Below, piece after piece: positions 26,214-47,577 of a stretch of 64,000 bases of DNA (within the stretch, counting starts at the first letter, position 1; each line of letters opens with the position of its first letter). The notes under the pieces are model-generated. The model ran no database searches, was not told where the DNA came from, and saw only the letters and a list, made by a program, of their open reading frames with translations. The DNA comes from Paracoccaceae bacterium (lineage in GTDB: Bacteria > Pseudomonadota > Alphaproteobacteria > Rhodobacterales > Rhodobacteraceae), in the NCBI GenBank assembly GCA_028874915.1, contig JAPPHA010000049.1, positions 61,062 to 125,061 on the forward strand, in the 5' to 3' direction. The position numbers and the translations under genes are program-made.

Positions 26214-26352
26214 TCCTGTCGGCGAAGGGCCGATCGCGAATGAGGGAGGATATTGGCCTGATGTCGACGGACGGCATACGACATTCGCCCCCGACGTCCG
26301 TCGATCCTTCCCTCCGGAACCCCGGCCCGAACGGCCGTTCGCGAGCAACGGA

Positions 26353-27783: not shown

Positions 27784-27787
27784 GTTC

Positions 27788-28735: not shown

Positions 28736-28761
28736 GCGACGCGAACGCACGGCCCCGACAG

Positions 28762-29607
28762 ATGCTGCTCAAGATCTTTCATCAGACGCGCTATAGCTAT
28801 GACACGCCCGTTCCCTACGGACTGCTGCAACTGCGGCTCGTTCCTCCGACCGGACCCGGGCAGGATGTCCGGTCATGGAAGACCAGCGTCACGGGCGGGC
28901 GGAAGGAGACATCCTTTCGGGATCACTTTCGGAACACGGTCGAACTGGTGAGCACCGAACCGGAGACCGATGCCATTACCGTGACCTGCGAAGGCAGCGT
29001 CGACGTTTCGGACAGTACAGGCATCACGGGTCCCCACCGAGGCTTTGTTCCCCTGTGGCTGTTCAGACGCACGACAGCGATGACTGACCCGGGACGCCGG
29101 GTCGGCAAACTGATCCGGGAATTCTCGGAATCGGGACCCACGGAAGGCGGCCGCCGGAACGACGGCAGGAAGGGCGACGACGATGGGGACATTGCGCGCC
29201 TGCACCGGCTGTCGGCACGGGTTCGCGAACGGATCGACTTTGAACCGGGCCGGACCGACGCGACGACACGCGCTGAGGATGCCCTGGCCGCGGGTCGCGG
29301 CGTTTGCCAGGATCACACCCATGTGTTCCTTTCGGCAGCCCGCGGGCTCGGATTTCCGGCCCGCTACGTCAGTGGCTACCTGTTGACCCACGGTCAGAAC
29401 GGTGCTCAGGCCAGCCACGCCTGGGCCGAAGTTCATGTCGAAGACCTGGGATGGGTCGGGTTCGACATCTCGAACGGCATTTCCCCGGATGACCGTTATG
29501 CCCGGGTTGCGACAGGTCTCGACTACATGGATGCGGCGCCGATCCGGGGAATGCGGTTCGGCAACGGCGGCGAGAGCCTGGACGTGACATTGCAGGTCCA
29601 GCAATGA
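28762..29607 (+). CDS. Transglutaminase-like cysteine peptidase of the Anbu cluster
   Basis: 281 residues. A beta-rich N-terminal domain (MLLKIFHQTRYSYDTPV) precedes the transglutaminase-like core with triad Cys182 (GRGVCQDHTH), His219 (ASHAWAEV) and Asp235 (GFDISNG). Bacterial members are usually peptidases or amidases. A charged acidic insert (about residues 122-143) is species-specific. It is the third gene of the Anbu set, 26 bases after the alpha-E gene. Removal or transfer of the peptide made by the ATP-grasp enzyme is a plausible role, from context only. Confidence 0.88.
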   Translation: MLLKIFHQTRYSYDTPVPYGLLQLRLVPPTGPGQDVRSWKTSVTGGRKETSFRDHFRNTVELVSTEPETDAITVTCEGSVDVSDSTGITGPHRGFVPLWLFRRTTAMTDPGRRVGKLIREFSESGPTEGGRRNDGRKGDDDGDIARLHRLSARVRERIDFEPGRTDATTRAEDALAAGRGVCQDHTHVFLSAARGLGFPARYVSGYLLTHGQNGAQASHAWAEVHVEDLGWVGFDISNGISPDDRYARVATGLDYMDAAPIRGMRFGNGGESLDVTLQVQQ

Positions 29608-29665
29608 CGGCCCTTCGACCTCCAACACCTTCCGCCGACGCCCAAAGAAGCCACGGGACCCGACA

Positions 29666-30403
29666 ATGACCTACTGTGTCGGCATGTCCCTCGACCGCGG
29701 GCTGGTCTTCATGGCGGACACCCGAACCAGTGCCGGGGTCGACAACGTCTCGACCTATCGAAAGCTCTTCAGTTGGGAGGTCCCCGGCGAACGGTTTCTC
29801 ACCATGATGACCGCCGGAAACCTCGCCACGACTCAATCCGTCATCAGCATCATCGATGAACAGATCCATGCGGGCGACGACAGCCCATCGATCGTCAACG
29901 CACCGTCGATGTTCCGGGTGGCCGACCGGGTCGGCCAAACTCTTCGCAAGACGATCCGGGCCCACGAAACCGGTGGCGAGCAAGAGGCACAGGCCTTCAA
30001 CGCCAGTGTCGTCGTTGGGGGCCAGATCCGGGGCGAGGCGCCGCGAATGTTCATGGTCTATCCGGAGGGAAATTTCGTCGAATCGGCCCTGGACACCCCG
30101 TTTTTTCAACTCGGTGAAACCAAGTACGGCAAGCCGATTCTGGTTCGGGCCTATACGCCCGAAATGAGTTTCGAGGATGCGGTAAAACTGCTGATCGTCT
30201 CCTTTGATTCCACCATCAAGTCGAATCTCTCGGTCGGCCTCCCGCTGGACCTCCAGATCTACGCCAAGGACAGTTTCCGGAACGGCCGGTCACTCCGGAT
30301 CGACGACAGCGACGCCTACTACAGGACGATTTCCGACGGCTGGAGCCAGGCCATTCAGCTCGCCTTTGATTCCTTGCCCGACTTTACGTTTCCCGAGGTC
30401 TGA
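29666..30403 (+). CDS. Anbu (bacterial proteasome homologue) peptidase-like protein
   Basis: 245 residues of the Ntn-hydrolase proteasome fold. It begins MTYCVGMSLDRGLVFMADTR; removal of Met1 would expose Thr2 as nucleophile, as in proteasome beta subunits. DTRTSAGVDN matches the Anbu family. Anbu forms open rings, and its proteolytic activity is disputed. It is the last gene of the four-gene set, 58 bases after the transglutaminase gene. Peptides or tagged proteins made by the ATP-grasp/alpha-E pair are the inferred partners. Confidence 0.9.
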   Translation: MTYCVGMSLDRGLVFMADTRTSAGVDNVSTYRKLFSWEVPGERFLTMMTAGNLATTQSVISIIDEQIHAGDDSPSIVNAPSMFRVADRVGQTLRKTIRAHETGGEQEAQAFNASVVVGGQIRGEAPRMFMVYPEGNFVESALDTPFFQLGETKYGKPILVRAYTPEMSFEDAVKLLIVSFDSTIKSNLSVGLPLDLQIYAKDSFRNGRSLRIDDSDAYYRTISDGWSQAIQLAFDSLPDFTFPEV

Positions 30404-33214: not shown

Positions 33215-34087
33215 TCACTCCAGACGATAGAACCGGCTGGCCGTTCGACCGAAAACCCTGGAATGCGCTGAATCGGGGATCAGCACCGAAAAGACGTCGA
33301 TGAGTTCGCCATATTCCGAACTCAGGCTGTCCACCGGAAAATTGGATCCGAACATGCAGCGATCCGGCCCGAACTGCTCGAGACAGGTCTCGACTATCGG
33401 GCGGATCGACTCCCGGTTCCAGTCGGGATCGAACATGCCAAGACCCGAAATCTTGCAGTGCATGTTGGGAAGAATCGAGAGTCGTCCGAGTTCCCGGGAC
33501 CAGAAACGCAGCCCGTCCGGCGTACGGTCATGCGGGGATCCGGCGTGACAGATGACCACGGGCAATTCAGGGACCTGACCGAAGACCCGGGCCGAATCAG
33601 CCATCAATTCGGGCAACAACTGCAAGTCGAAGGATAGACCAGCCGCCGCAATCATTCTCAATCCCGCCAGGAACCGGGGATGGCCAAGCAGTCGATTCGT
33701 TCCGGTCGCCGAATCTTCCGCAGGTGACCGCCCGACAATCTGACGGATCCCCCGAACAGACGGCAGGGCACCGAGGGTTTCGAGCTGCCTGTCCAGATCC
33801 GGACGGGTGAGATCGGCGAAAGCCACCTGAGCAGCCGGCCAGCCGGGATTGGCAGCCGCCACGCCGTCGACCCAGCGGGTCTCGGCCAGCGGGTCCTCAG
33901 CCCCGACCTGGACATGGACCGAGGCCTCGACTCCATGGCCTGCAGCCGTGACCCTGAATTCGTCAATGAGATAGTCTCTCTGGATCGGTGTCGGATCGCC
34001 GAAAAAACGTCGCTGACCCCGGGCCTCGAGCCACGGGTAGGAGACCGCCTTCAGGTCCCAGATGTGATGGTGGGAATCAATTCTCAC
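33215..34087 (-). CDS. Amidohydrolase family 2 (lactonase/decarboxylase-like)
   Basis: 290-residue TIM-barrel metal hydrolase starting RIDSHHHIWDL, the HxH metal motif. It also has VICHAGSPHDR, supplying another ligand, and CMFGSNFPVDSL near the C-terminus with the conserved Asp. The family includes L-fuconolactonase, 2-pyrone-4,6-dicarboxylate lactonase and decarboxylases. The GTG at 34087 is preferred because AAGGG precedes it; an ATG at 34105 is possible. It lies downstream of a two-domain SnoaL gene in the same direction and probably forms an operon with it. Confidence 0.85.
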   Translation of the reverse strand: MRIDSHHHIWDLKAVSYPWLEARGQRRFFGDPTPIQRDYLIDEFRVTAAGHGVEASVHVQVGAEDPLAETRWVDGVAAANPGWPAAQVAFADLTRPDLDRQLETLGALPSVRGIRQIVGRSPAEDSATGTNRLLGHPRFLAGLRMIAAAGLSFDLQLLPELMADSARVFGQVPELPVVICHAGSPHDRTPDGLRFWSRELGRLSILPNMHCKISGLGMFDPDWNRESIRPIVETCLEQFGPDRCMFGSNFPVDSLSSEYGELIDVFSVLIPDSAHSRVFGRTASRFYRLE

Positions 34088-34217
34088 GGCCGCGCCCTTC
34101 CGCATCGTCGGCCGGGATCAGCGAGGCCCGTTTCCGGATTCCGAGCCCTGTGTGGATCACGGCGAGCACCCCGGTTCCACGTCGCCCGGCACTCGCTTCT
34201 TCGCAGCCGGCCGCCGG

Positions 34218-35243
34218 TCATTCCGGAAAATCCATTGCCGGGTTCCCGGTCAGGTGCCGAAGCCTCGAGAAGACGTCGACGCCGAGCTGGAGGAGGACGT
34301 GAATGATGTCAATCGGAATCCAGTTTTGGGCGATGAGGCCGTTGTCGAGCCTGTAGAAGTCCATCACCCGCATGGCGACACGCTTGCCGGTGGCGCCGAG
34401 TCCCAGCCATTCCCCGGTGTGCGTCGCGACCACGGACGGCCATCCCCCCGTGACGGCGAACTCGCCATCGCCGATCCGCATGTAGTGTCCGGCACCGCGA
34501 CGATCCCGAAATCCTGTCAGGAACGGGATCTGATGATGCGCCCGGAATTCTTCCATCCCCTGCGTGATCCCGATCCCCGCGGGTCCGCACCAGAGGAAAT
34601 CCGGCGTCCAGTATTGTCCATGCGGCATCGAGTCGAGGTTGCGGCCGTCAAACTGCGCGAGCGCCCCATGCATGGCCAGGACCGTTTCAATGGACCGGTG
34701 GCTCCGGTCTCTCGCGCCAAGGGCGGTTCCGGAACCGTCCCCGTCCTTCGGGCGCGGCCAAAGTCCCTCCCGTCCGAGAGAGGGCGAGATCGGCCAGTGG
34801 CCGGCCTGCCGCATCAGATCCAGGAAATCGAAAAGGACATGAGAGCGGATAATGTGATCATCGCAGATCCGGTGCGCTTCGCAGCACCTGAGATGCACGA
34901 CTTCACCGGTCGGCGGGATGCCGACCAACGGTTCCCGAAAAGTTCCCCGATAGTGGCCCATCCAGGCCACGATGATGTCGCCCTCGGGGTCGGATTCCGG
35001 TCGAGGGTCCCCGAGGCTCCGGCCGGCGACAAATAGCGAGTCGTCTCGCTCGACATCCGGAATCGCCTTTCGCAGCTGGGATCGGACCGCGTCGATCGCT
35101 TCCGTGCCCTTCCGTTCATTGAAGGGGTGGCTGCCCCACCAGTCCGCCTCCGGATGGTAGGCGTCACGCACGTCGGCCCCGGCCGTAATCGCGTGCAGCC
35201 GGTCGTGAAAGTCGCGCTTGATCCTGGCCAGGGTCGTATCCAT
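34218..35243 (-). CDS. Two-domain SnoaL/NTF2-like protein (paralogue A)
   Basis: 341 residues made of two SnoaL-like cone folds. The first domain covers about residues 1-150; the linker contains WPISPSLGREG. The second starts near 185 and has FLWCGPAGIGITQGMEEF followed by HHQIPFL. The protein at 38560 shares these landmarks. SnoaL-like proteins include cyclases, hydrolases and isomerases, so a small-molecule enzyme is likely but the reaction is unknown. It pairs with the amidohydrolase gene downstream and diverges from the orphan ABC ATPase gene (311-base gap). Confidence 0.78.
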   Translation of the reverse strand: MDTTLARIKRDFHDRLHAITAGADVRDAYHPEADWWGSHPFNERKGTEAIDAVRSQLRKAIPDVERDDSLFVAGRSLGDPRPESDPEGDIIVAWMGHYRGTFREPLVGIPPTGEVVHLRCCEAHRICDDHIIRSHVLFDFLDLMRQAGHWPISPSLGREGLWPRPKDGDGSGTALGARDRSHRSIETVLAMHGALAQFDGRNLDSMPHGQYWTPDFLWCGPAGIGITQGMEEFRAHHQIPFLTGFRDRRGAGHYMRIGDGEFAVTGGWPSVVATHTGEWLGLGATGKRVAMRVMDFYRLDNGLIAQNWIPIDIIHVLLQLGVDVFSRLRHLTGNPAMDFPE

Positions 35244-35554
35244 CGCTCCCGAGTGTCCCTGCCGCCGGAGCCGGCACAACCGCAGGCCCGACCTGTTTCC
35301 TGTCTCTCGCAATGGGCATCAGAGATTTGCTCACCGCCAGACGGGCCTGTTCCGATACCGAAGGTCCATTCCTTCGCCTCTGCCGATTGATGTCAACCCG
35401 CGATTGGCCTGACTGCGGAGACCCGGAAATCCCTGGCGGACAACACGGATCGGACGAACTCGGCGTTCAATTGCGCTTGCAATGACCGGGTGTCGCAAGG
35501 AAAATGGACCGATTGTCATCACCTTTTTCGAACGACTGCCGCGGAGATCATGGC
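35244..35554. other. Divergent intergenic region
   Basis: About 310 bases between divergent genes of the catabolic island, expected to hold both promoters. GGAG lies eight to nine bases before the ATG at 35555. I could not identify an operator. Confidence 0.45.
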
Positions 35555-36610
35555 ATGGCACAAATCCTGCTTCAGAACCTGACCAAGCGTTGGGGATCAT
35601 TCGTCGGCGTCGACAATCTCAACCTGTCGATCGCAGATCGCGAATTTCTTGTCCTGCTCGGTCCGTCGGGCTGCGGCAAAACCACGACCATGCGGATGAT
35701 TGCCGGGCTCGAGGAGGCGACCGAGGGCGAGATTTCCATCGACGGCAAGGTCGTGAACGATCTGGAGCCCAAGGACCGCGACGTCGCCATGGTTTTCCAG
35801 TCCTACGCCCTTTATCCGAACATGAACGCATACGAGAACATCCGCTTTCCGTTAATGGTCCGAAAGGTCGACGCGTCGACCCACGAGGACCGCGTTATGC
35901 GGGCCGCGCGAATGGTCGAACTGACCGAATTCCTGCACCGCAAGCCGGCGGAACTCTCGGGCGGCCAGCGGCAGCGGGTGGCGCTCGCACGGGCCATCGT
36001 CAGAGAGCCCAACGTCTTTCTGATGGATGAGCCGCTGTCCAACCTCGATGCCAAGCTCAGGGTCTCCACCCGGGCCCAAATCAAGAATCTCAGTCACGAA
36101 TTGCAGGTCACCACAATCTACGTCACCCACGATCAGATCGAGGCGATGACGCTTGCCGACCGTGTCGTGGTCATGAAGGCCGGCGTCGCACAGCAAGTCG
36201 GAACTCCGACCGAGATTTACGACCGCCCGGCCAACACGTTCGTAGCCGGATTTATCGGTTCCCCGGCCATGAATCTGCTTGAGGGTCGATTGGAAGGCGG
36301 CGCTTTCCGGGCAGAGAACGTGGACATTAGCGGAATGGACGCTCCCGACGGTGATGTCGTACTCGGCTTTCGGGCCGAGGACGCGTCGGTCAGCGGGGCC
36401 GATGCCGACGGCCAGATCCGCGCACCGGTCTTCACGCTCGAACTGCTCGGTGACGCTACCATGATCACATTACGCGCTGGCGGCACCCTGATCTCGGTCA
36501 AGGCCGCGAAGGACTTCCGGATCGAGATCGGCCAGACGGTTTCAATCTCGGTTCCGGTCCGGATCTGCCACCTGTTCGATCGACAATCGGGGAATCGGCT
36601 CGACAGCTAA
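35555..36610 (+). CDS. Orphan UgpC/MalK-type ABC transporter ATPase
   Basis: 351 residues. The ABC domain has Walker A GPSGCGKTT at 36-44, LSGGQRQR at 134-141 and VFLMDEPLSNLDAKLR. A C-terminal TOBE/OB domain (about residues 235-350) includes GFRAEDASV, typical of carbohydrate and glycerol-phosphate importers. No permease or binding protein is encoded within the window on either side. It may therefore serve a transporter encoded elsewhere, as some shared ATPases do. It lies inside the SnoaL catabolic island and reads in the same direction as the downstream operon. Confidence 0.88.
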   Translation: MAQILLQNLTKRWGSFVGVDNLNLSIADREFLVLLGPSGCGKTTTMRMIAGLEEATEGEISIDGKVVNDLEPKDRDVAMVFQSYALYPNMNAYENIRFPLMVRKVDASTHEDRVMRAARMVELTEFLHRKPAELSGGQRQRVALARAIVREPNVFLMDEPLSNLDAKLRVSTRAQIKNLSHELQVTTIYVTHDQIEAMTLADRVVVMKAGVAQQVGTPTEIYDRPANTFVAGFIGSPAMNLLEGRLEGGAFRAENVDISGMDAPDGDVVLGFRAEDASVSGADADGQIRAPVFTLELLGDATMITLRAGGTLISVKAAKDFRIEIGQTVSISVPVRICHLFDRQSGNRLDS

Positions 36611-36714
36611 CCCCTGCCCACGTCCTCAACAACCACAGTCATGCCTCCATCAAGACCCGGGATCCGGCACCGTCACAGAGAGACCTGCAACCGGGCCGTG
36701 AATCGGGTGGTTGC

Positions 36715-37263
36715 ATGAAGGGGTCGCGACCCGAGCAGGCCGTGTTGAGCCGCGGAACAGACCTGTCGCGAACGTCCGAGACCCGGAACGTGGTCGAAGC
36801 CATGGTCGACGGGCTCAACGATCACCGTATCGACGATATCGACGCCTTTTTTGCCCGGGACTTTCGCTGGATAGGCAACTGCGGATGCGGAACCAAGACC
36901 GGCATCCGGGAATTCCAGGACAACTGGCAACGTCCTTTCCAGGCCGCATTTTCGGACAAGGTCTGCATCGATGAAGCCCGGCTGTTCATGGGCGAGTGGG
37001 CGGCGGCATTCGGCCGCCAGGAAGCCACCCACAGTGGCGAATTCATGGGAGTGGCGCCGACGGGGAAGCGGATCACCATCCGATACATGGACTTCTGGAA
37101 GGTTGTTGGCGGCAAGATCGTCGACAATTGGGTGATGGTCGATTTCCCGGATGTCCTCGCCCAGCTTGGCGTTGATGTATTTGACGGTCATGGATGGGAA
37201 GCCTTCGACCGAGGCGAGCGGCGCCCGCCCCGACCCGGAAAGGAGACGATCGATGGCGGTTGA
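36715..37263 (+). CDS. SnoaL/NTF2-like protein (single domain)
   Basis: 182 residues with one SnoaL-like domain: [18 protein letters not shown] and [17 protein letters not shown]. It resembles the C-terminal domains of the two-domain relatives at 34218 and 38560. Its stop overlaps the start of the histidinol-dehydrogenase-like gene by 11 bases, so the genes are coupled. It heads a seven-gene operon running to 43670. The reaction is unknown. Confidence 0.78.
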
Positions 37264-38563
37264 AACTCTCAAGACCGGGCGGTCGGAGGCCGAACGGTCC
37301 GACGAAGATGCGCGAATCCGCAGCGTTGTCGAGACGACCCTCCGTGACATCGAATCCGGCGGAGATGCGGCGGTGCGGGCCCTGAGTGAGAAATTCGACA
37401 ATTTCTCGCCACCCTCTTTCCGCCTCTCTGACTGCGACATCGAAACGGCCATGGGCAGTGTCGCCGAACGGGACCTCGCGGACATCCGTTTCGCCCAGGC
37501 CCAGATCCGCAGATTCGCCGAGGCCCAGCGCGCTTCCATGACCGACATCGAGGTGGAAACGCTCCCCGGTATCATCCTCGGCCACAGGAACATCCCGGTC
37601 CAGTCCGTCGGCTGTTACGTCCCCGGCGGCAAATTTCCGATGGTGGCCTCCGCACACATGTCCGTGCTGACTGCCAGCGTCGCGGGCGTTCCCCGGATCG
37701 TTGCCTCGGCACCGCCGGTCGATGGTGCTCCGCATCCGGCCATCGTCACCGCCATGCATCTCGGTGGTGCTCACGAGATTTACTGCCTCGGCGGCATCCA
37801 GGCGGTCGGGGCCATGGCCCTTGGAACCGAAACTATTGAACCCGTGCATATGCTGGTCGGTCCGGGCAATGCCTTCGTCGCCGAAGCCAAACGCCAGTTG
37901 TTCGGCCGGGTCGGAATTGACCTTTTCGCCGGACCGACCGAGACCATGGTGATCGCCGATCGGACGGTCGATGCAGAAATCTGTGCCACCGATCTGCTCG
38001 GTCAGGCCGAACACGGTTACGATTCGCCGGCAGTGCTGATCACCAACGACCGGGACCTGGCTGAAAAGACTCTGGCCGAGATCGACCGCATCCTGGCGAT
38101 CCTGCCGACTGCCGGGACGGCTTCGGTCAGCTGGCGGGATTACGGTCAGGTCATTCTCTGCGACACCCATGCGGAAATGCTGGTCGTGGCCAATGACCTC
38201 GCCTTTGAACATGTGCAGGTGATGACCGATCGCGATGACTGGTACCTGGAAAACCTGACCTGCTTCGGAGCGCTGTTCCTCGGCCCACGCACCAACGTCT
38301 CGAACGGCGACAAGGTCATCGGCACCAACCACACGCTGCCAACGCGTCGCGCCGGGCGCTACACCGGCGGTCTCTGGGTCGGCAAGTTCCTCAAGACCCA
38401 CAGCTACCAGAGGGTGACAACCGATGCCGCCGCCGCCGACATCGGCGCCGTTTGTTCCCGGCTCTGTCTGCTCGAGGGATTCGTCGGTCACGCCGAACAG
38501 GCCAATCTCCGGGTTCGCCGCTACGGCGGGCGCAACGTTCCCTATGGAGGCGCAGCCGAATGA
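37253..38563 (+). CDS. Histidinol-dehydrogenase-family enzyme (sulfopropanediol 3-dehydrogenase-like)
   Basis: 436 residues. Family landmarks: [59 protein letters not shown] (zinc-ligand Gln and His) and KTHSYQ near the C-terminus. The sequence fits the non-biosynthetic branch that includes HpsN, which oxidises (R)-2,3-dihydroxypropane-1-sulfonate to sulfolactate, better than HisD of histidine synthesis. No his gene is near. The AAAGGAG ribosome binding site fixes the ATG at 37253. The context suggests oxidation of an alcohol in an unknown catabolic route. Confidence 0.85.
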
Positions 38564-39660
38564 CCGCTGGCGGGCACGGCGAAGCGGCGGGCTGTGCCCG
38601 TCGCCACTCCGCCAACCGGCGGCTTCTGGCCCCGTTTCTCGACGCGCTCAGGGAACCCGGCCCCGATCCGGCCGAACTCCTGCCGATCGCCGACCGGCTT
38701 TTTCGGAATCGCGCGCGCGTCTATCTTGCCCACCCCTTCGAGACACTTGACGGTGCGGAAGAACTGCTGGGAACGGCGTTTGCGCCATTGATCCGAGCCC
38801 TTCCCGATCTCGAGAGGCGTGACACGATTGTCATCGAAGGCGCCGATGCCGACGGAGCCGACTGGGTGGGATGTTGCGGCTACTATACCGGCGTCTTTCA
38901 ACGTCCCTGGCTCGATATCCCGCCGACCGGCCATCAGATCGCGATGCGATTCCATGAGTTCTTCCGGATCGAAGACGGAAAGGTCGCGGAGATGCAGGCG
39001 CTCTGGGATATCCCGGAGGTGATGATGCAATCCGGCGCCTGGCCCCTGTCGCCAAGCCTCGGACGTGAGTGGCAGGTCCCCGGCCCCGCAACACAGGACG
39101 GCGTGATGAAACCGGCTGCGGAGGAGTCGGTCCCGTCTCGGGACGCCGACTCCAGCGTCAAACTGGTCGGCGACATGCTGGCCCATCTCGGCCATTTCGC
39201 GAAAGGCGGCGTCGCCGCGATGCGACTTGAACGATTCTGGCACCCCCATTGCAGCTGGTATGGACCCGCCGGAATCGGAACCTGCCGCGGCGTTGCCGGT
39301 TTCCGGAACTGGCACCAGATTCCGTTCCTGAACGCCATGCCCGACCGCGTCGGCAGTCTCGGCAAGGGACATCTGTTCGGAGAAGGCGCCTATGTCGGCT
39401 TCACGGCCTGGCCGGGAATGCGAATGTCCATCAGCGGCGACGGCTGGCTCGGAATCGCACCCGCGGGACAGCGACTGACCATGCGCAGCCTCGACTTCTG
39501 GCGAGTCCAGGACGGTCTCATCCGCGAGAACTGGGTCCTCGTCGACCTCCTCCATGTCTATCACCAGATCGGTGTCGACGTCCTTGCCCGGATGCGGGAA
39601 CTGACACGGGCTCGGCGTTGGGCCAGCGGCGGCATGGAACCGGGGGCGCTGCTCCCGTGA
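38560..39660 (+). CDS. Two-domain SnoaL/NTF2-like protein (paralogue B)
   Basis: 366 residues with two SnoaL-like domains joined by a linker containing [11 protein letters not shown]. The second domain has [18 protein letters not shown] and WHQIPFL, closely matching the protein at 34218. The ATG overlaps the stop of the preceding dehydrogenase (ATGA), and its own stop overlaps the next GTG start (GTGA). It is therefore tightly coupled on both sides. Enzyme function is likely but unassigned. Confidence 0.8.
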
Positions 39661-40424
39661 ACCGGTTTCCCGCCACCCCGTCGTTCCGGCTGGACGGCCG
39701 GTCAGCGCTGGTTGCCGGTGGAACCTCGGGAATCGGTCTTGGCGCCGCAGCGGCGCTCGCCGAAGCCGGCGCCGATGTCACGGTCGCGGCCCGGTCTCCC
39801 GACCGACTCGACGAGACCCGCGAGGCCTTTGCCGAACGCGGCCTCGCGGTCCGACCCTTGCGTATGGATGTCGGTGACGTCGACGCAATGACCGACTCGG
39901 TCTCCCGGAACGGTCCCTTCGACATCCTCGTGAATTCGGCCGGACTGGCCCGGCATGCCCCGGCCCTCGACGTCACGCCGCGGTCCTTTGACACCGTCAT
40001 GTCCGTCAATCTCAGGGGCGCCTTTTTCCTCGCCCAGGCCGTGGCTCAAGGGCTGATCGCCGCGGGGAGGCCAGGATCGCTGATCACCATTTCGTCACAG
40101 ATGGGGCACACGGGCGGTGTCGACCGTTCCGTCTACTGTGCCTCCAAGCATGCCGTCGAAGGGTTCACCAAGGCCATGGCGATCGAGTGGGGGAGTCACG
40201 GCATTCGCGTCAACACCGTCTGTCCGACCTTCATCCGTACGCCTTTGACCGAGGGCACTTTCGCAGATCCCGAACGCGTGGCCTGGATCACCGAAAAGAT
40301 CCGGCTCGGCCGGGTCGGACAGGTCGAAGACGTCATGGGGGCCGTCCTGTACCTCGCCTCCGACGCCTCGGCACTGGTCACCGGCAGCGCGCTGCGGGTG
40401 GATGGCGGCTGGACAGCCGGTTGA
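39657..40424 (+). CDS. SDR-family oxidoreductase
   Basis: 255-residue classical SDR: GGTSGIG nucleotide-binding loop near residues 21-27, NSAGLA, SSQMGH with the catalytic Ser, YCASK with Tyr and Lys, and a C-terminal DGGWTAG. The GTG start overlaps the stop of the upstream SnoaL gene. Together with the histidinol-dehydrogenase-like enzyme this gives the operon two alcohol-oxidising steps. It is probably NAD-dependent; the substrate is unknown. Confidence 0.9.
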   Translation: MNRFPATPSFRLDGRSALVAGGTSGIGLGAAAALAEAGADVTVAARSPDRLDETREAFAERGLAVRPLRMDVGDVDAMTDSVSRNGPFDILVNSAGLARHAPALDVTPRSFDTVMSVNLRGAFFLAQAVAQGLIAAGRPGSLITISSQMGHTGGVDRSVYCASKHAVEGFTKAMAIEWGSHGIRVNTVCPTFIRTPLTEGTFADPERVAWITEKIRLGRVGQVEDVMGAVLYLASDASALVTGSALRVDGGWTAG

Positions 40425-40496
40425 CAGGCGGCTAACGGGCACCCACCGCCCAATCGCCACACCGCCGCCGAACCAAACGGGACCAGGATCAACGGC

Positions 40497-41486
40497 ATGA
40501 CTGATTCTCAGCGACAGTTCCGGGATCTCCCCGATTTCATCATAGGTATTACCCGGGAGATCTGGGAAGACCGTAACACCGCTTCGCTCCGTCAATACTA
40601 TGCCCCGGATGTTGTGATGCGCTCGCCGGCCTCGGTTGTGACCGGCAACGAGACCGTCATCGCCGACACGATGGCGACACTGGCAGAGTTCCCGGATCGG
40701 ACATTGCTCGGCGAAGACGTGATCTGGAGTGGTGACGCGGAATCCGGCTGGCTGTCGTCCCACCGTCTGCTTTCGACGGCCACGCATCTCGGTCACGGGA
40801 CCTACGGGCCGCCGTCGGGACGGACCCTGGCCTACCGGATCATCGCCGACTGCCACGTGGTGGCCGGCGGCGGTGTCATCGACGAGGAGTGGCTGATCCG
40901 CGACCAGGGCGCCATCGTCCGGCAGATCGGAAAGTCTCCCCGCGAATTCGCGGCCGAACAGATCCGGCTCGAGGGCGGCCCCGACACGGCGACGCGTCCG
41001 ACCGACGTCGCCGGGACCACCCCCACCAAGTACCTGGGCGAGGGCAACCGGAATTCCTGGGGCGAACGGTACCGGAACATCCTTGAGCAGATCATGGCCG
41101 GGGAACTGGCCGTCATTCCCCGGGAATACGACCGGGCCTGCCATCTCGAATACCCGGGAGGAATCACGGGACATTCCCACTCGGACGCCGATCGGTTCTG
41201 GCTGGGCCTCCGAAGCAGTTTTCCGGATGCCGAATTCAAGATCACCCATCAGATCGGAAGGGAGGATCCGGCCATGCCGCCGCGGGCCGCCCTTCGCTGG
41301 CGGTTGACCGGGACTCATGGCGGCGCCGGCCACTTCGGACCGCCGACCGGCGCCGACGTTCATGTCATGGGCGCCTGCCATGCCGAGTTCGGGCCCTGGG
41401 GACTTCGCCGGGAATTCGTGCTCTACGACGAAACGGCCATCTGGAAGCAGCTTCTCCTCGCCTGTCCGACGGCGTTCGGTTCCTGA
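40497..41486 (+). CDS. Long SnoaL/NTF2-like protein
   Basis: 329 residues with two SnoaL-like regions. The first has DVVMRSPASVVTGNETVIAD, the second YDRACHLEYPGGITGHSH followed by FPDAEFKITHQIGRED and FGPPTGADVHVMGACHAEF. It is more distant from the two-domain proteins at 34218 and 38560 than those are from each other. It follows the SDR by 72 bases and precedes the bicupin by 49 bases. Function is unknown. Confidence 0.75.
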   Translation: MTDSQRQFRDLPDFIIGITREIWEDRNTASLRQYYAPDVVMRSPASVVTGNETVIADTMATLAEFPDRTLLGEDVIWSGDAESGWLSSHRLLSTATHLGHGTYGPPSGRTLAYRIIADCHVVAGGGVIDEEWLIRDQGAIVRQIGKSPREFAAEQIRLEGGPDTATRPTDVAGTTPTKYLGEGNRNSWGERYRNILEQIMAGELAVIPREYDRACHLEYPGGITGHSHSDADRFWLGLRSSFPDAEFKITHQIGREDPAMPPRAALRWRLTGTHGGAGHFGPPTGADVHVMGACHAEFGPWGLRREFVLYDETAIWKQLLLACPTAFGS

Positions 41487-41535
41487 ATGAATCGGCGGCC
41501 GTGAAGACGGGCGGATCAACCAAAGAGGAACGGCC

Positions 41536-42501
41536 ATGACAGCAACGGACATGCAATCACGAATCGTGCGTTACGGGACGCTCAGGCCCTGCCGAACCGC
41601 CTTCATCGACGCCCACACACCGGGGTCCGACCAGAAGGAGAATTACGCGATCGTCGGTGGTGGGGTCTCCGAGAATCCCGACCAGCATGTGCATATCGTC
41701 GACACGCCGGGCTTCAATATCGGGGCCGCGGGCCAACCACCCAAGTGCCGGAATTCGTTGCATTCCCACCGGACCGCAGAAGTCTTTTTCGTGCTCAAGG
41801 GGCGCTGGCGGTTTTTCTGGGGACGCTGGGGGACCGCGGGAGAGGTCACGCTTGAGGAAGGCGACATCATCAATCTGCCCACAGGCATGTTCCGGGGATT
41901 CGAAAACATCGGCAACGACTTCGGAATGCTGATTGCCATTCTCGGCGGCGATGACGCTGGTGGTGGCGTCGTCTGGGCGCCGCAGGTGATCGAGGATGCT
42001 GCCGAACACGGCCTGGTTCTTGCCGATACCGGGCGCCTCTATGACACACAGAAGGGCGAATCCCTTCCCGACGGTGTGGGACCGATGCCCAGGCTGAGTG
42101 ACGCGGAGCTGGATGGATTTGCCGAGTATTCGACCTCGGAGGTGGTGCCGCGTTTCGTTGCCCGGTACCGCGACATGATGGCCTGCGCCGACCGGCAACC
42201 GGCCCCCGTCATCGGACCCGACTCCATGCTTCGGGACCGACCCGGATTCGAGGTCGACTTCCTCTCCAGGGGATCCGCGATCGCCGATCCCGGCGGCACC
42301 GAACGGCACGAAGTGCTGCTGATCATGCGCGGACACTGGCACCTGACCTGGAACGCAGAGGAGACGGTCCTTTCCCCGGGCGACACATGTGCAATCCCGC
42401 CCGGCGTCCGGCGAAGCCTGGTTCCATCGATGTCGGGAGAGGCGAGCCTGTTCCGGGTGCGGAATTCCGACGATCCCGCCGGACCCACGCACTGGATCTG
42501 A
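41536..42501 (+). CDS. Bicupin protein
   Basis: 321 residues with two cupin domains. In the first, NSLHSHRTAEVFFVLKGRWR carries HxH and Glu ligands and is followed by EEGDIINLPTGMFRGFEN. In the second, ERHEVLLIMRGHWHLTW and SPGDTCAIPPGVRRSL remain, but the metal histidines are mostly lost. The first cupin is therefore probably catalytic (dioxygenase, isomerase or lyase) and the second structural. AGAGGA precedes the ATG. It lies in the SnoaL operon, 44 bases before the MetE-like gene. Confidence 0.82.
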   Translation: MTATDMQSRIVRYGTLRPCRTAFIDAHTPGSDQKENYAIVGGGVSENPDQHVHIVDTPGFNIGAAGQPPKCRNSLHSHRTAEVFFVLKGRWRFFWGRWGTAGEVTLEEGDIINLPTGMFRGFENIGNDFGMLIAILGGDDAGGGVVWAPQVIEDAAEHGLVLADTGRLYDTQKGESLPDGVGPMPRLSDAELDGFAEYSTSEVVPRFVARYRDMMACADRQPAPVIGPDSMLRDRPGFEVDFLSRGSAIADPGGTERHEVLLIMRGHWHLTWNAEETVLSPGDTCAIPPGVRRSLVPSMSGEASLFRVRNSDDPAGPTHWI

Positions 42502-42545
42502 ACCGGCACGCCACCCGTAACGAAAACTGAGACCGGGAGCTTCCG

Positions 42546-43670
42546 ATGACACCAATCCCGACGACCCACGTCGGTTCACTGCCGAGATCGCAGGCGGTTG
42601 TGGATTTCCTGTTCGCCCGGGAACAGGGCAAGGACTTTGACGCCGAGGCGTTTGACCGTTGCATGGCATCGGCCTGTTCGGAAACCGTTCGCCGGCAGGT
42701 GGGTGCGGGAATCGATGTCGTCTCCGACGGCGAGACCTCGAAGATTTCCTATTCGACCTACGTCAAGGATCGCTATACCGGGTTTTCCGGCGACACGCCC
42801 CGGAAGGCGCCGGCGGACCTGCTCCGCTTCCCCCAGTTCCTTCGCCGCCTCGCCGAATCCGGCGGTACGCCGACCTACGCCCGGCCGCGCTGCACGGGTC
42901 CGGTGACAGCGCTCGACCATGGAGAACTCCACAAGGATATCGCCAATCTGAGAGCGGCGATGCAGGCGCATGGCGCCGATCGCGGTTTCATGAATGCCGC
43001 CTCGCCGGGAGTGATTTCGTTGTTCCTGCCGAATGACCACTATCCGACTCGGGATGCCTATCTGGCGGCGCTCGCCGAGGCCATGCGGGATGAATACCGG
43101 ATCATCATCGAGGCCGGACTCGACCTCCAGCTCGACTGTCCGGATCTGGCGCTGTCGCGGCACGTTCTATTCGAAGAACTGTCCGATGCCGAATTCCTCC
43201 GCGTTGCCGGGGCCAATATCGAAGCGCTGAATCATGCCCTCGCCGGCCTCCCCCAGGACCGGATCCGCGTCCACATCTGCTGGGGCAACTACGAGGGACC
43301 GCACGTTTGCGACATTGCCATGGACGCCGTGTTCCCGGTCCTGATGCAGGCCCGTGCGCGCTACCTTCTCTTTGAAACGTCCAACCCGCGCCACGCCCAT
43401 GAATGGGAGGTCTTCGCAAACAGGAAGGCCGAGATCCCCGATGACCGAATACTGGTTCCCGGCGTCATCGACAGCACGACCAATTTCGTCGAACACCCCC
43501 GCCTTGTGGCCCAGCGGATCGAGCGATTTATCGGCATCGTTGGCCGCGACCGTGTCATGGCCGGTTCCGATTGTGGCTTCGGCACCTTTGCCGGCTTTGG
43601 CGCCGTCGATTCGGAAATCGCCTTTGCCAAACTGGCGGCGATGGCCGAAGGAGCCCGGCTGGTGCGTTGA
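42546..43670 (+). CDS. Short MetE-like methyltransferase family protein (second copy)
   Basis: 374 residues, again only the C-terminal barrel of MetE. The zinc site is His243 and Cys245 (VHICWGN), Glu277 (LLFETSN) and Cys343 (GSDCGFG), and the N-terminus has THVGSLPRS. It is distinct from the copy at 25101. As the last gene of a catabolic operon it is more likely to move a methyl group, or carry out a carbon-sulfur or retro-type reaction on the pathway compound, than to make methionine. GGGAG precedes the start. Confidence 0.83.
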   Translation: MTPIPTTHVGSLPRSQAVVDFLFAREQGKDFDAEAFDRCMASACSETVRRQVGAGIDVVSDGETSKISYSTYVKDRYTGFSGDTPRKAPADLLRFPQFLRRLAESGGTPTYARPRCTGPVTALDHGELHKDIANLRAAMQAHGADRGFMNAASPGVISLFLPNDHYPTRDAYLAALAEAMRDEYRIIIEAGLDLQLDCPDLALSRHVLFEELSDAEFLRVAGANIEALNHALAGLPQDRIRVHICWGNYEGPHVCDIAMDAVFPVLMQARARYLLFETSNPRHAHEWEVFANRKAEIPDDRILVPGVIDSTTNFVEHPRLVAQRIERFIGIVGRDRVMAGSDCGFGTFAGFGAVDSEIAFAKLAAMAEGARLVR

Positions 43671-43734: not shown

Positions 43735-44598
43735 TCAGGGCGACGGTCGATCGGCCGCTCCGGACGGTGTCATGTCAATGCCGATGATCTCGGCCGCGGC
43801 GATCAGGGATTCGATGTAGCGCCGGGCCGCGCGCGTCCAGGCACGTTTCTCCAGAGCCTCGCGAATACGCGGGCGGACGGTTTCGAGAGGGAGAACGTCT
43901 CCATCGGCCCGGGCATCAAGCCGGATGACGTGGTACCCGTATCGGGTCGCCACAGGTTCCGGCGACAACTCTCCCGGGGCGAGCGCCTCGAGGACGGCCT
44001 CGAATTCCGGAACGGTATCGCCCGATGACAACTGTCCGAGACGCCCGCCATTGGCGCCGGACGGACAGGAACTCCTCTCCCTGGCCAGCACCTCGAAGCG
44101 ATCCGGGGCCGTGCCGAGAATCTGAAGGACCTCGGCTGCCTGTGCCTTCGCGCGTGCCCGACCGACCGCGTTCGTCGGCGGCGCGGCGAACAGGATATGG
44201 GCTGCCTCGAAGAGCGACGGTCCCCGAAACCGACGCGGATTGCCGGCGGCATAGGCCGCCGCAATCATCGCCTCGGTCGGCGGTTCCGGGCGAAGGGCAC
44301 CCTCCAGCACCGTCCGGGTTCGCGCCTCGTCGTCAGTTTCACGCCTGCCCTCTCCGAGCCGGAGCGGAACCGCCCTGACTCCGATACGGTCGGCTTCCTG
44401 AAGGAGAAGCGTCCTGATGACCAATGCCCGCGCGGCCTGGCTCCACGGCGCCAGCGGCTTGTCAGGAGCCGCCCGGTGCAGCTGCGCCTCGGCAGCAATT
44501 GCGGCGGCCGGAATGACCTGCCCGTTGACGGTGATGTCCGAGAAGGGCGATTCCCGGCGAAGTCGGGCGGCGGGCGGTGGCTGGGCTGAACCGGTCAT
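43735..44598 (-). CDS. Parvulin-type peptidyl-prolyl isomerase of the nar operon
   Basis: 287 residues. A helical N-terminal region precedes a PpiC/rotamase domain with AAHILFAAPP, CPSGANGGRLGQLSSGDTVP and YGYHVIRL. There is no signal peptide, so it is cytoplasmic. The ATG overlaps the narI stop (ATGA). Pseudomonas nar operons also end with such a gene, and a chaperone role in maturing the nitrate reductase is the usual proposal, though I know of no firm proof. Confidence 0.88.
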   Translation of the reverse strand: MTGSAQPPPAARLRRESPFSDITVNGQVIPAAAIAAEAQLHRAAPDKPLAPWSQAARALVIRTLLLQEADRIGVRAVPLRLGEGRRETDDEARTRTVLEGALRPEPPTEAMIAAAYAAGNPRRFRGPSLFEAAHILFAAPPTNAVGRARAKAQAAEVLQILGTAPDRFEVLARERSSCPSGANGGRLGQLSSGDTVPEFEAVLEALAPGELSPEPVATRYGYHVIRLDARADGDVLPLETVRPRIREALEKRAWTRAARRYIESLIAAAEIIGIDMTPSGAADRPSP

Positions 44599-45317
44599 CA
44601 GCTGGCGGTTCGGTCACGCTCCCCGGACCGGGCGCCGGCAGCAGACCGGCGCGACCGGACGATCTGATAGCCGGGGCGGAACAGGTAGCGTACCGGAAAC
44701 GACAGCATGTGAACGAGCCGCGTGAAAGGGAAAAGCAGGAAGATCGTCAACCCCAGGAACAGATGCAGTTTGAAGATCCAGTGAGCGTCTATCACGAGAT
44801 CGGCGACATGAGCCCGGAACGTGAAGATCCCCTGTGCCCAAGCCATGAACCTAACCATTTCACCGCCGTCGAGATGCTGGGCGGACAGCGGAATGGTGGC
44901 AAGACCGAGGAGAATCTGGGCAAGCAGAAGTGCCAGGATTCCAATGTCGGCAACGCTGGAGTTCCTGCGAATCCTCGGATCCGACACCCGCCTGTGCAGG
45001 AGCATGCCGCCGCCGACGAGGGCGAAGAGGCCGGCGATGCCGCCGACGACGATCGCCAGGATCTGCTTGAAGCCATGGCTGATCCCGATGGCATCGAAAA
45101 TCCAGATCGGAGTCAGCAGCCCGACCAGATGCCCGAAGAACACGATCAGCACGCCCACATGGAACAGCACCGAACCCATGACCAGCTGGCGTCGCCTAAG
45201 CAACTGACTCGATGAAGACTTCCAGGTGAAGGGATCCCGCTCGTAACGGGCGATACTCCCGACCGCGAGGACTGTCAGGCAGATGTAGGGATAAATGCCG
45301 AACAGAAAGGTGTTCAT
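44598..45317 (-). CDS. narI: Respiratory nitrate reductase gamma subunit
   Basis: 239 residues, five membrane segments. The diheme cytochrome b carries histidines at 53 and 63 (FHVGVLIVFFGHL) and 185 and 203 (KLHLFLGL, RLVHML), as in E. coli NarI. It oxidises quinol and passes electrons to NarH at the cytoplasmic face. AGGAG lies before the ATG at 45317; the longer upstream frame is not needed. It overlaps narJ by four bases and the isomerase gene by one ATGA. Confidence 0.95.
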   Translation of the reverse strand: MNTFLFGIYPYICLTVLAVGSIARYERDPFTWKSSSSQLLRRRQLVMGSVLFHVGVLIVFFGHLVGLLTPIWIFDAIGISHGFKQILAIVVGGIAGLFALVGGGMLLHRRVSDPRIRRNSSVADIGILALLLAQILLGLATIPLSAQHLDGGEMVRFMAWAQGIFTFRAHVADLVIDAHWIFKLHLFLGLTIFLLFPFTRLVHMLSFPVRYLFRPGYQIVRSRRSAAGARSGERDRTAS

Positions 45318-46051
45318 GGCTCGCTCCTGGTCCCGCCCGCTTGTCTCGCGTCCGGCCCGGTCGTGAGCGGGGGCGCCTGTGGTCCCTCCATGCCGGCCAG
45401 CAGATCCCGGGCCTTCGGACATCCGGCGCCCGGATCGGGCCCGAACGTGACCTCGGATTCCTCCCACGCCCGATCGAGTGCCGCGAGGTCATCCGGGCTT
45501 TCGTCCGGCCGCTCGAGGAGTGCCGCGACGGCGCTCCGGCTGACCGATGCCCCCGCCAGAACGACGAGCGCCCGAAAGACCGGTGCGTAGTCGCTTTTGC
45601 GCCGTTCGAGTCGGGCCGCCAGGGCCTCGAATAGATGGGCTGCATCGGCCAAGAGCGCCTTCGCTTCCTGCGGCGGACGGGTCGACAGGAATTCCAGGAG
45701 CAGCGGCAAATGGTCGGGCAGTTCCGGCGTGGCATTGACGAACCCGGCGCGTTCGTAGGTCTCCAGGAGGTCGACCATGGCCGATCCCCGGTCCCGGCTC
45801 TCGCCATGGACATGTTCGAACAGGTTCAGCGACAGCGAGCGCGACCGGTCGAAGAGGTCGACGTAGCGTTCCTGAAGGTCCCAGACATCCTCCTGCTCGA
45901 ACACGGTGAGCAGGCGACCGATCCGCCTTCGCAGACGCCGTCCAAGGCGCCGGTCACCGTCCAGCACCCGCCTCAGTTCGGGAATCTCGCGCTGGAGCTC
46001 CGGCGACGGATAGCTCAGGAGGAGAGAGAAGGACTTCAGGGTCAGGTCCAT
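45314..46051 (-). CDS. narJ: Nitrate reductase molybdenum cofactor assembly chaperone
   Basis: 245 residues of the TorD/NarJ helical family. It begins MDLTLKSFSLLLSYPSPELQ and has YVDLFDRSRSLSLNLFEHVH, then RGSAMVDLLETYE, both characteristic of NarJ. It binds NarG during cofactor and iron-sulfur insertion. Its ATG overlaps the end of narH by ten bases, and its stop overlaps the narI ATG. The C-terminal tail (from about residue 200) is proline-rich and variable. Confidence 0.93.
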   Translation of the reverse strand: MDLTLKSFSLLLSYPSPELQREIPELRRVLDGDRRLGRRLRRRIGRLLTVFEQEDVWDLQERYVDLFDRSRSLSLNLFEHVHGESRDRGSAMVDLLETYERAGFVNATPELPDHLPLLLEFLSTRPPQEAKALLADAAHLFEALAARLERRKSDYAPVFRALVVLAGASVSRSAVAALLERPDESPDDLAALDRAWEESEVTFGPDPGAGCPKARDLLAGMEGPQAPPLTTGPDARQAGGTRSEP

Positions 46052-47577
46052 CCCGAGACCTCCGGCGGCATCCGCAGGGGACGGCTGCTCGAGCCGCCGA
46101 AGAGCGAACCACCACTGATCCCCGACGAACACCGGTTGCCGTCGGTGAAACCGCATCCGCCACGCAGGTCATAGGCGTCCTCGACGGTTTCCCTGTGGGT
46201 CGTCGGAATGACAAAGCGGTCTTCGAAATTGGCGATGGCCATCAGGTCATACATGGCTTCGATCGCCTCCGGTGCCAGCCCGACGCGGTCGGCGATGCCC
46301 TCGTCGATGACTGTCTCCACGGTCTTGGCCCGCATGTAGATCCGCATCGCCAGCATCCGTTCCAGTGCCGTGACGATCGGCAACTCGTCGCCAGCGGTCA
46401 GCATGTTGGCGAGATAGCGGACCGGGATGCGGAGCGAACGGACGTCCGGCAGATCCCGGTCGGAGTCCAGGAATCCGGTCTCGGCGGCATTCTGGATCGG
46501 GCTGAGTGGCGGAACATACCAGACCATGGGGAGCGTCCGGTATTCCGGATGAAGGGGAAAGGCGACCTTCCAGTCCATGGCGAGCTTCCAGACCGGTGAA
46601 CGTTTCGCCGCCTCCAGCCAGTCTTCGGGAACGCCGTCGGCCAGCGCCGCCCGTTGGATGTCCGGGTCAGCGGGATCGAGGAAGATCCCCAGCTGTTCTC
46701 GGTAGAGATCCTTTTCGGACTCCGTACCGGCGGCCGCTTCGATTCGGTCGGCGTCGTAGAGGATGACACCAAGATAGCGGATCCGGCCAACGCAGGTCTC
46801 GGAGCAGACGGTCGGGTTTCCGGATTCGATCCGCGGGTAGCAGAAGGTGCATTTCTCCGACTTTCCGGTCTCCCAGTTGTAGTAGATCTTCTTGTACGGG
46901 CAGCCGGAGACACACATGCGCCAGCCGCGGCATTTTTCCTGATCGATGAGGACGATTCCGTCCTCTTCCCGCTTGTAAATGGCGCCCGAGGGGCAACTCG
47001 CGACACAGGAAGGGTTCAGGCAGTGCTCGCAGAGCCTGGGCAGATACATCATGAAAGTGTTTTCATACTGGCCGTAGATGTCTTTCTCGATGTCGGCGAA
47101 ATTGCTGTCCGCAGATCGCTTGGCGAATTCTCCGCCGAGGATTTCTTCCCAGTTCGGCCCCCATTCGATCCGGTCCATCCGTTCGCCGGAAACCCGCGAC
47201 CGCGGCCGGGCGGTCGGGAACGCCTCCATCTCCGGCGCCGACTGGAGATGGCTGTAATCGAAATCGAAGGGTTCATAATAGTCGTCGATCTCCGGAAGAT
47301 CGGGGTTGGCAAAGATATTGGCGAGGATCCGCCACTTGGCACCCTGCCGGGGTTGCAGCTTTCCGGATGCGGTCCGGACCCACCCGCCTTTCCATGTCGA
47401 CTGGTCTTCCCAGTTCTTCGGATAACCGACGCCGGGCTTCGTCTCGACATTGTTGAACCACGCGTATTCGACGCCGTCGCGGCTGGTCCAGACATTCTTG
47501 CAGGTCACCGAACAGGTGTGACAGCCGATGCATTTGTCGAGATTGAGAACCATCCCGATCTGCGCGCGTATCTTCAT
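46042..47577 (-). CDS. narH: Respiratory nitrate reductase beta subunit
   Basis: 511-residue iron-sulfur protein. The first cluster motif is CIGCHTCSVTC at residues 16-26. Further motifs are CEHCLNPSCVASCPSG, CRGWRMCVSGCPYKKIYYN (the Trp marks the 3Fe-4S cluster) and CTFCYPRIESGNPTVCSETC. In all this gives three 4Fe-4S and one 3Fe-4S clusters. It carries electrons from NarI to NarG. The ATG at 47577 overlaps the narG stop (ATGA). Confidence 0.97.
   Translation of the reverse strand: MKIRAQIGMVLNLDKCIGCHTCSVTCKNVWTSRDGVEYAWFNNVETKPGVGYPKNWEDQSTWKGGWVRTASGKLQPRQGAKWRILANIFANPDLPEIDDYYEPFDFDYSHLQSAPEMEAFPTARPRSRVSGERMDRIEWGPNWEEILGGEFAKRSADSNFADIEKDIYGQYENTFMMYLPRLCEHCLNPSCVASCPSGAIYKREEDGIVLIDQEKCRGWRMCVSGCPYKKIYYNWETGKSEKCTFCYPRIESGNPTVCSETCVGRIRYLGVILYDADRIEAAAGTESEKDLYREQLGIFLDPADPDIQRAALADGVPEDWLEAAKRSPVWKLAMDWKVAFPLHPEYRTLPMVWYVPPLSPIQNAAETGFLDSDRDLPDVRSLRIPVRYLANMLTAGDELPIVTALERMLAMRIYMRAKTVETVIDEGIADRVGLAPEAIEAMYDLMAIANFEDRFVIPTTHRETVEDAYDLRGGCGFTDGNRCSSGISGGSLFGGSSSRPLRMPPEVSGWT

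Follow-up and report, generated by a model that had tools for sequence, protein, structure and literature searches.

The window analysed here is a stretch of 64,000 nucleotides from an assembly of a Paracoccaceae bacterium; its end is also the end of the contig. Between positions 33215 and 43670 it carries an island of ten genes, listed in Table 1. All ten have the families named in an original prediction made from the sequence alone, and Pfam and NCBIfam scans agree with those assignments. Four encode SnoaL-type proteins (SnoS, Sno2A, Sno2B and Sno2C); the others encode a dehydrogenase of the histidinol dehydrogenase (HDH) family, a short-chain dehydrogenase/reductase (SDR), a bicupin, an Amidohydro_2 protein, a short MetE-like protein and the ATPase of an ATP-binding cassette (ABC) importer. 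We consider it probable, at roughly 60%, that these genes represent a set conserved across phyla that imports a small methylated, polyhydroxylated compound, sugar- or cyclitol-like, and breaks it down by oxidation into pyruvate plus a second central acid. The gene set is conserved, mobile and catabolic and, by the literature searches made, undescribed; we infer the class of its substrate. No pathway matching it was found in the open-licence library searched, in line with the earlier view of a catabolic-type set outside any known pathway.

The seven genes from 36715 to 43670 are packed as expected for the single operon that had been proposed. The HDH gene overlaps the SnoS gene by 11 bases, the Sno2B gene overlaps the HDH gene by 4 and the SDR gene overlaps the Sno2B gene by 4, while the intergenic gaps that follow the SDR gene are 72, 49 and 44 bases up to the MetE-like gene. 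The ATPase gene stops 104 bases upstream of the SnoS gene. The likelier starts are 35555 for the ATPase, 37253 for the HDH and 35243 for Sno2A on the minus strand. Rfam and tRNA scans of the window gave no matches.

Table 1. Genes and gaps of the island, in window coordinates
Feature	Position	Strand	Basis or remark
Amidohydro_2 protein, lactonase-like	33215..34105	-	divergent from operon; PF04909 135 bits
Sno2A, two-domain SnoaL protein	34218..35243	-	PF07366/PF12680; start 35243 inferred
ABC importer ATPase, UgpC/MalK type	35555..36610	+	NF008653 446 bits, above cut-off
Gap; relatives have binding protein and two permeases here	36611..36714		comparison of loci
SnoS, single-domain SnoaL protein, first gene of the predicted operon	36715..37263	+	PF07366 74.5 bits
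HDH-family dehydrogenase, putative third subfamily (neither HisD nor HpsN)	37253..38563	+	PF00815 (Histidinol_dh) 425 bits
Sno2B, two-domain SnoaL protein	38560..39660	+	Pfam; 20-row alignment; two SnoaL-type domains in model
SDR dehydrogenase, GTG start at 39657	39657..40424	+	PF13561 200 bits
Gap; relatives have LacI regulator here	40425..40496		comparison of loci
Sno2C, two-domain SnoaL protein	40497..41486	+	PF07366 64.5 bits, two stretches
Bicupin, predicted dioxygenase	41536..42501	+	conserved residues; structure model
MetE-like short zinc methyltransferase (predicted), 374 aa, Meth_synt_2	42546..43670	+	His243, Cys245, Glu277, Cys343

Conservation of the gene set

A profile search with Sno2B gave 550 confirmed stretches, and the best 80 of these make up our set of loci. 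Thirty-nine contain an open reading frame at least 55% identical to the window HDH and are referred to as HDH loci; one locus (L018), in which the HDH runs off the edge, was entered among those without. An SDR gene is present in 31 of the 39 HDH loci and in 3 of the 41 others, and the same comparison gives 34 versus 7 for a LacI regulator, 31 versus 4 for the bicupin, 19 versus 4 for an alpha/beta hydrolase, 18 versus 7 for the MetE-like protein and 15 versus 1 for Amidohydro_2. A pyruvate aldolase is found in 29 HDH loci and one other locus; it is of the HpcH type (17 versus 1) or the RraA type (12 versus 0), and no HDH locus has both. Importers are exchanged in the same manner, with an ABC system in 21 HDH loci, a sodium:solute symporter in 14, neither in four and both in none.

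A complete 12-gene order (ABC ATPase, binding protein, two permeases, SnoS, HDH, Sno2B, SDR, LacI, Sno2C, bicupin, MetE-like) is found in six loci (L049, L067, L069, L070, L074 and L080). Among the other loci with at least ten of the 12 genes, some are ordered alike and eight differ (L026, L029, L033, L046, L056, L077, L112 and L122). Named strains that carry the full set include Leisingera aquimarina DSM 24565 (L049) and Ruegeria sp. SCSIO 43209 (L122). Conservation had been named as a test of the island: the content recurs, and the order is kept in many alphaproteobacteria. In relatives the set further includes an aldolase, a LacI regulator and an alpha/beta hydrolase. The ATPase regarded as an orphan does lack its partners here, but in relatives such as L049 and L069 it is usually followed by genes for a binding protein and two permeases. 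The spread of Sno2B is patchy, since matches occur in only 11 of 61 related genomes.

A second sample consisted of 288 evenly drawn alphaproteobacterial genomes searched with the MetE-like protein at 1e-90. Matches were found in 51 genomes, the window's own counted, and 15 others have a match of at least 64% identity. We examined one stretch from each of these 15 genomes and 25 stretches around some of the matches of 47–59% identity. Beside the closer matches lie genes for the bicupin (14 of 15), Sno2C (13), HDH (12), LacI (12), SnoS (11) and SDR (10), some of the contigs being short.

Gammaproteobacteria, SAR324, Chloroflexota and Acidimicrobiaceae also carry the set, completely or partly, and it is found in large Roseobacter-type genomes; many of the bacteria that have it are marine. 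Its presence in two alphaproteobacterial genomes of just 1.4 and 1.6 Mb (L170 and L172) suggests a common substrate. Plasmid-borne copies in Octadecabacter arcticus, a Ruegeria from the coral Galaxea and Marinovum algicola have insertion sequence transposases nearby. HDH and SDR genes accompany a LacI-type regulator and a TAXI-type tripartite ATP-independent periplasmic (TRAP) importer in Sulfitobacter, where an aldolase is added, and on Marinovum pMaD2.

Some loci show features of their own. One SAR324 assembly carries nearly identical islands on two contigs (L056 and L057), by duplication or as an assembly effect. In Vibrio hannami (L037, 12526–13278) a TauE/SafE-type exporter gene, unseen in the other annotated loci, follows Sno2C. 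A class III alcohol dehydrogenase is encoded in 7 of the 80 loci, all titled Rhodobacteraceae or Albidovulum.

Features of the island proteins

The nearest solved relatives of the island HDH are HpsN enzymes. As described in PMC11382572, His126 of CpHpsN reads the sulfonate and sets HpsN apart from HisD. The window HDH has Met130 at this position, and Met or Leu occupies it in all 54 fetched HDHs of at least 55% identity, plus one counted HDH below that value. All 24 aligned rows keep the zinc and catalytic positions unchanged, HpsN Gln248, His251, Glu318, His319, Asp352 and His411 corresponding to window Gln251, His254, Glu319, His320, Asp353 and His413. The NCBIfam hisD model scores the window HDH above its cut-off. 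The same genome has a separate HisD-type gene on contig C116, typed by family position, with the motif GGLAAYPSS and 39% identity to the island HDH. The neighbours of the island HDH are not histidine genes. The island enzyme appears to be a third kind within the family, neither HisD nor HpsN.

These observations bear on a class of compounds first suggested for testing, the C3 sulfonates, which include 2,3-dihydroxypropane-1-sulfonate (DHPS). The proximity of the HDH to solved HpsN and the resemblance of the HDH–SDR pairs to HpsN and HpsO would fit, and an hpsO-type SDR is present, although a Pfam scan of the window genes found no hpsP-type zinc alcohol dehydrogenase in the island. An HpsN-type gene that does encode the His, followed by SDR and alcohol dehydrogenase relatives, lies elsewhere in the genome on C109. 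Because His126 is replaced in the island enzyme and its relatives, and separate HpsN- and HisD-type genes exist, we consider a sulfonate pathway highly improbable and set that suggestion aside.

The MetE-like protein scores 26.6 bits with the full-length MetE model TIGR01371, against a cut-off of 929.95, and is about half the length of the two-domain enzyme (~750 residues). All 16 aligned rows keep its putative zinc ligands, which correspond to the MetE site (His-x-Cys, Glu, Cys). On all three sphingomonad plasmids viewed, relatives of 51–53% identity lie beside genes for NTF2-like, IclR, LigM-like aminomethyltransferase, methylenetetrahydrofolate reductase (MTHFR) and PurU proteins. The MetE-like/NTF2-like/IclR trio is conserved among them (L116 11998–14288, L119 12001–14271, L120 12004–14296), and the Croceicoccus plasmid also has ligK and LigAB near the MetE-like relative. 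From these surroundings we infer a catabolic methyl-group role for the protein. Methoxy-aromatic (lignin-type) catabolism would fit such O-demethylation and protocatechuate 4,5-cleavage neighbourhoods, but the recurrent island genes annotated include no ring hydroxylase or extradiol dioxygenase and come with LacI and sugar-type importers instead, which makes this reading unlikely.

Other MetE-like relatives have surroundings of other kinds. On Rhodococcus and Dietzia plasmids (L118 9986–14348, L121 7986–12335) a MetE-like gene is found with a 2-oxoglutarate oxygenase, a YaaH transporter, a phytanoyl-CoA-type dioxygenase and an HD-domain gene, perhaps another methyl-compound pathway; a haloarchaeal relative has no O-demethylation or oxygenase-type context. 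No mention of the MetE-like gene was found in PMC8091115 under the terms tried.

The SnoaL domain (PF07366) is recognized in all four SnoaL-type proteins with 64.5 to 77.2 bits, against a curated cut-off of 28.4. Three are two-domain proteins (Sno2A, Sno2B and Sno2C) and SnoS has a single domain. Sno2A and Sno2B are 33% identical and, exactly as predicted, have SPSLGRE, GPAGIG and HQIPFL in common, at residues 153, 220 and 237 of Sno2A and 164, 235 and 252 of Sno2B; the three motifs are absent from Sno2C and SnoS. They are family signatures, most of their positions showing no variation across an alignment of 20 rows. SnoS is 76–83% identical in syntenic alphaproteobacterial loci. A structure model of Sno2B contains two SnoaL-type domains, and polyketide-pathway cyclases and epoxide enzymes head its list of fold matches. 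SnoaL proteins being known cyclases, a role in polyketide-like biosynthesis or tailoring was weighed. We regard it as very unlikely and dropped it, given that importers, LacI and pyruvate aldolases recur while the recurrent neighbour clusters annotated include no polyketide synthase.

Sequence searches of the PDB with Sno2B, the bicupin and RraA gave only weak matches. Only the N-terminal half of the bicupin offers a plausible metal site, a single one, and His76, His78, Glu82 and Arg120 are invariant in 28 of 28 rows; its structure model (mean confidence, pLDDT, 89.4) has a quercetinase-like fold, tied with others. The best NCBIfam model for the SDR is KduD (211 bits versus a cut-off of 339), and Amidohydro_2 scores 111.9 bits with the L-fucono-1,5-lactonase model NF052480, whose equivalog cut-off is 400. 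An identity of Amidohydro_2 as 2-pyrone-4,6-dicarboxylate (PDC) hydrolase was rejected, the match with the Croceicoccus amidohydrolase beside ligK being 27% over 137 residues (E 0.001). RraA and HpcH both score weakly with LigK-type aldolases, and the best model for HpcH is 2-dehydro-3-deoxyglucarate aldolase, under its cut-off. Assignment of the cluster RraA as LigK was also rejected, as the Croceicoccus LigK shares just 29% identity with it across 92 residues.

Relatives of the partners missing from the window copy are encoded on other contigs of the same genome. These are a binding protein (60% identity) with permeases (73% and 49%) on C72, a second such set on C9, an RraA (59%) on C108 and an alpha/beta hydrolase (47%) on C86; the best LacI relative reaches just 41%. 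These genes may serve the island, and the binding protein and permeases probably do. Further two-domain SnoaL groups with a sugar-type binding protein and permeases occur in this genome (L101, L102, L103 and L143, on contigs C66, C72, C35 and C9), two of the binding-protein genes being read in two overlapping frames. Two other gene groups in the window were read by eye. What looks like a respiratory nitrate reductase operon (NarG-, NarH-, NarJ-, NarI-like) lies on the minus strand (43735–51314) and ends in a peptidyl-prolyl isomerase-like gene next to the island, and genes resembling a set of circularly permuted ATP-grasp, alpha-E, transglutaminase and proteasome-type peptidase occupy 26056–30403 on the plus strand.

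Proposed pathway and substrate

Each step of the proposed pathway is drawn from gene family and genomic context. Uptake would be by a sugar-type ABC importer whose ATPase is encoded in the island, while other contigs probably encode its binding protein and permeases. The SnoaL/NTF2-fold proteins would perform acid–base work (hydrolysis, dehydration or isomerization) that frees substituents or readies the core. For the HDH-family enzyme the natural guess is a zinc-dependent four-electron oxidation that turns a CH2OH beside a hydroxyl into COOH. Demethylation would fall to the MetE-like zinc enzyme, with a thiol, probably homocysteine, as methyl acceptor. Alcohol and lactone steps would be carried out by the SDR and by the lactonase-like Amidohydro_2 protein, and the bicupin would use O2 to open the demethylated enediol or ring. 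An aldolase, of the RraA type or in other clades the HpcH/HpaI type, would finally release pyruvate from a 4-hydroxy-2-oxo acid.

A sugar- or cyclitol-like compound is indicated by the sugar-type binding protein, LacI and sodium:solute symporter that recur among the loci of relatives. The exchange of importers and aldolases around a fixed core suggests that the set serves a single class of substrate, one encountered by many aquatic bacteria. The kept zinc sites of the HDH and MetE-like proteins, together with the sphingomonad O-demethylation neighbours, also argue for the proposed pathway.

Several observations weigh against it. The gene set varies between loci: 41 of the 80 Sno2B loci are without a counted HDH, and HDH and bicupin genes each occur in only 4 of the 25 stretches around the more distant MetE-like matches. 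One locus (L157) has a TRAP importer, HDH, SDR, LacI, bicupin, MetE-like protein, hydrolase and RraA and is SnoaL-free in 20 kb. MetE-free versions exist in Roseibium, Martelella and Sinorhizobium medicae; that of Roseibium has one ester cyclase with an ABC set, then TRAP, HDH, SDR, LacI, cupin, hydrolase and RraA. The mutual exclusion of importer and aldolase types partly tracks lineage, so that hypergeometric values make it look stronger than it is. The window copy is without a binding protein, permeases, LacI, alpha/beta hydrolase and aldolase. In the bicupin, Arg120 replaces the usual last cupin His of motif 2 in all 28 rows, and the fold ties with seed-storage proteins (vicilin) and oxalate decarboxylase.

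A possible but less probable alternative is that an O-methyl sugar or a uronate is degraded by an oxidative, non-phosphorylating pathway. The SDR would act as dehydrogenase, Amidohydro_2 as lactonase, the SnoaL proteins as dehydratases or isomerases, the bicupin as isomerase and the HDH on a terminal CH2OH, and the aldolase would yield pyruvate and a tartronate-type semialdehyde. LacI and the sugar-type binding protein fit this scheme, as do the best models for the SDR, Amidohydro_2 (fuconolactonase) and HpcH, all under their cut-offs. The bicupin, however, falls outside the KduI Pfam family, the MetE-like enzyme would need an aliphatic methyl ether as donor, and the recurrent clusters annotated include no glycosidase, kinase or enolase-type dehydratase.

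A narrower form of the proposed pathway, which we hold to be rather doubtful, is catabolism of mycosporine-like amino acids (MAAs) and 4-deoxygadusol, the ultraviolet sunscreens of algae, corals and cyanobacteria; the island would be the first gene set for it. In 4-deoxygadusol two carbonyl-type carbons flank a 2-methoxy enol and a tertiary hydroxyl neighbours a CH2OH, and 4-carboxy-4-hydroxy-2-oxoadipate is the substrate of LigK-type aldolases. The SnoaL proteins would hydrolyse off the amino acids, the HDH would oxidize the ring CH2OH, and the MetE-like enzyme would strip the 2-methoxy methyl group to leave a cyclic acireductone acid. The bicupin would then cleave beside C2 to give 4-carboxy-4-hydroxy-2-oxoadipate, which the aldolase would split into pyruvate and oxaloacetate. 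The enzyme set fits this chemistry stepwise, and the RraA/HpcH exchange would be explained by the weak LigK-type scores of both.

An L-serine dehydratase gene occurs in 7 of the 80 Sno2B loci (L013, L018, L025, L034, L035, L036 and L038) against 0.32 expected (50 genes in 223.6 Mb; Poisson 5e-8), and in genome G050 one lies 261 bases from a MetE-like gene. Serine hydroxymethyltransferase and glycine cleavage genes lie beside Sno2B in L013, and PhzA/B, an NTF2-fold enzyme of C=N chemistry, is among the Sno2B fold matches. Judged by record title and source, the bacteria include associates of corals, algae and sea ice and sponge-type associates. Against this, the dehydratase family was chosen after being seen in the loci, six of the seven were counted without an HDH, and the enrichment is weak as two events, four of the loci being from gammaproteobacteria and three from Litoreibacter. 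There are also versions without the MetE-like gene, versions without SnoaL proteins and soil versions, and the low LigK identity of the cluster RraA also tells against MAAs.

If the proposed pathway is right, the island would define a third branch of the HDH family and a catabolic role for MetE-like enzymes. If MAAs are the substrates, it would fill in the genes, so far missing, that decide what becomes of a major biological sunscreen.

Comparison with known systems

The island protein's model shares the bicupin fold of quercetinase and the salicylate and gentisate dioxygenases, a fold that non-enzymes also have, but identity to these enzymes is ~16% and Arg stands in place of the last cupin His. 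The LigM O-demethylation and protocatechuate 4,5-cleavage system of sphingomonads resembles the island in its MetE-like relative, its NTF2-like gene and the LigK aldolase family; the island is without LigM, MTHFR and LigAB genes. With HisD the island HDH shares PF00815 membership and the hisD model score. Compared with HpsN and the HpsNOP route of DHPS degradation, the HDH fold and the zinc and catalytic residues are alike, and in some versions an SDR follows the HDH, whereas the island has Met or Leu for His126, no HpsP-type alcohol dehydrogenase, and extra SnoaL, bicupin and MetE-like genes. The MetE-like protein differs from MetE in being short, at 374 residues, and in having catabolic neighbours, but keeps the His, Cys, Glu and Cys zinc ligands of MetE and the core MetE proteins.

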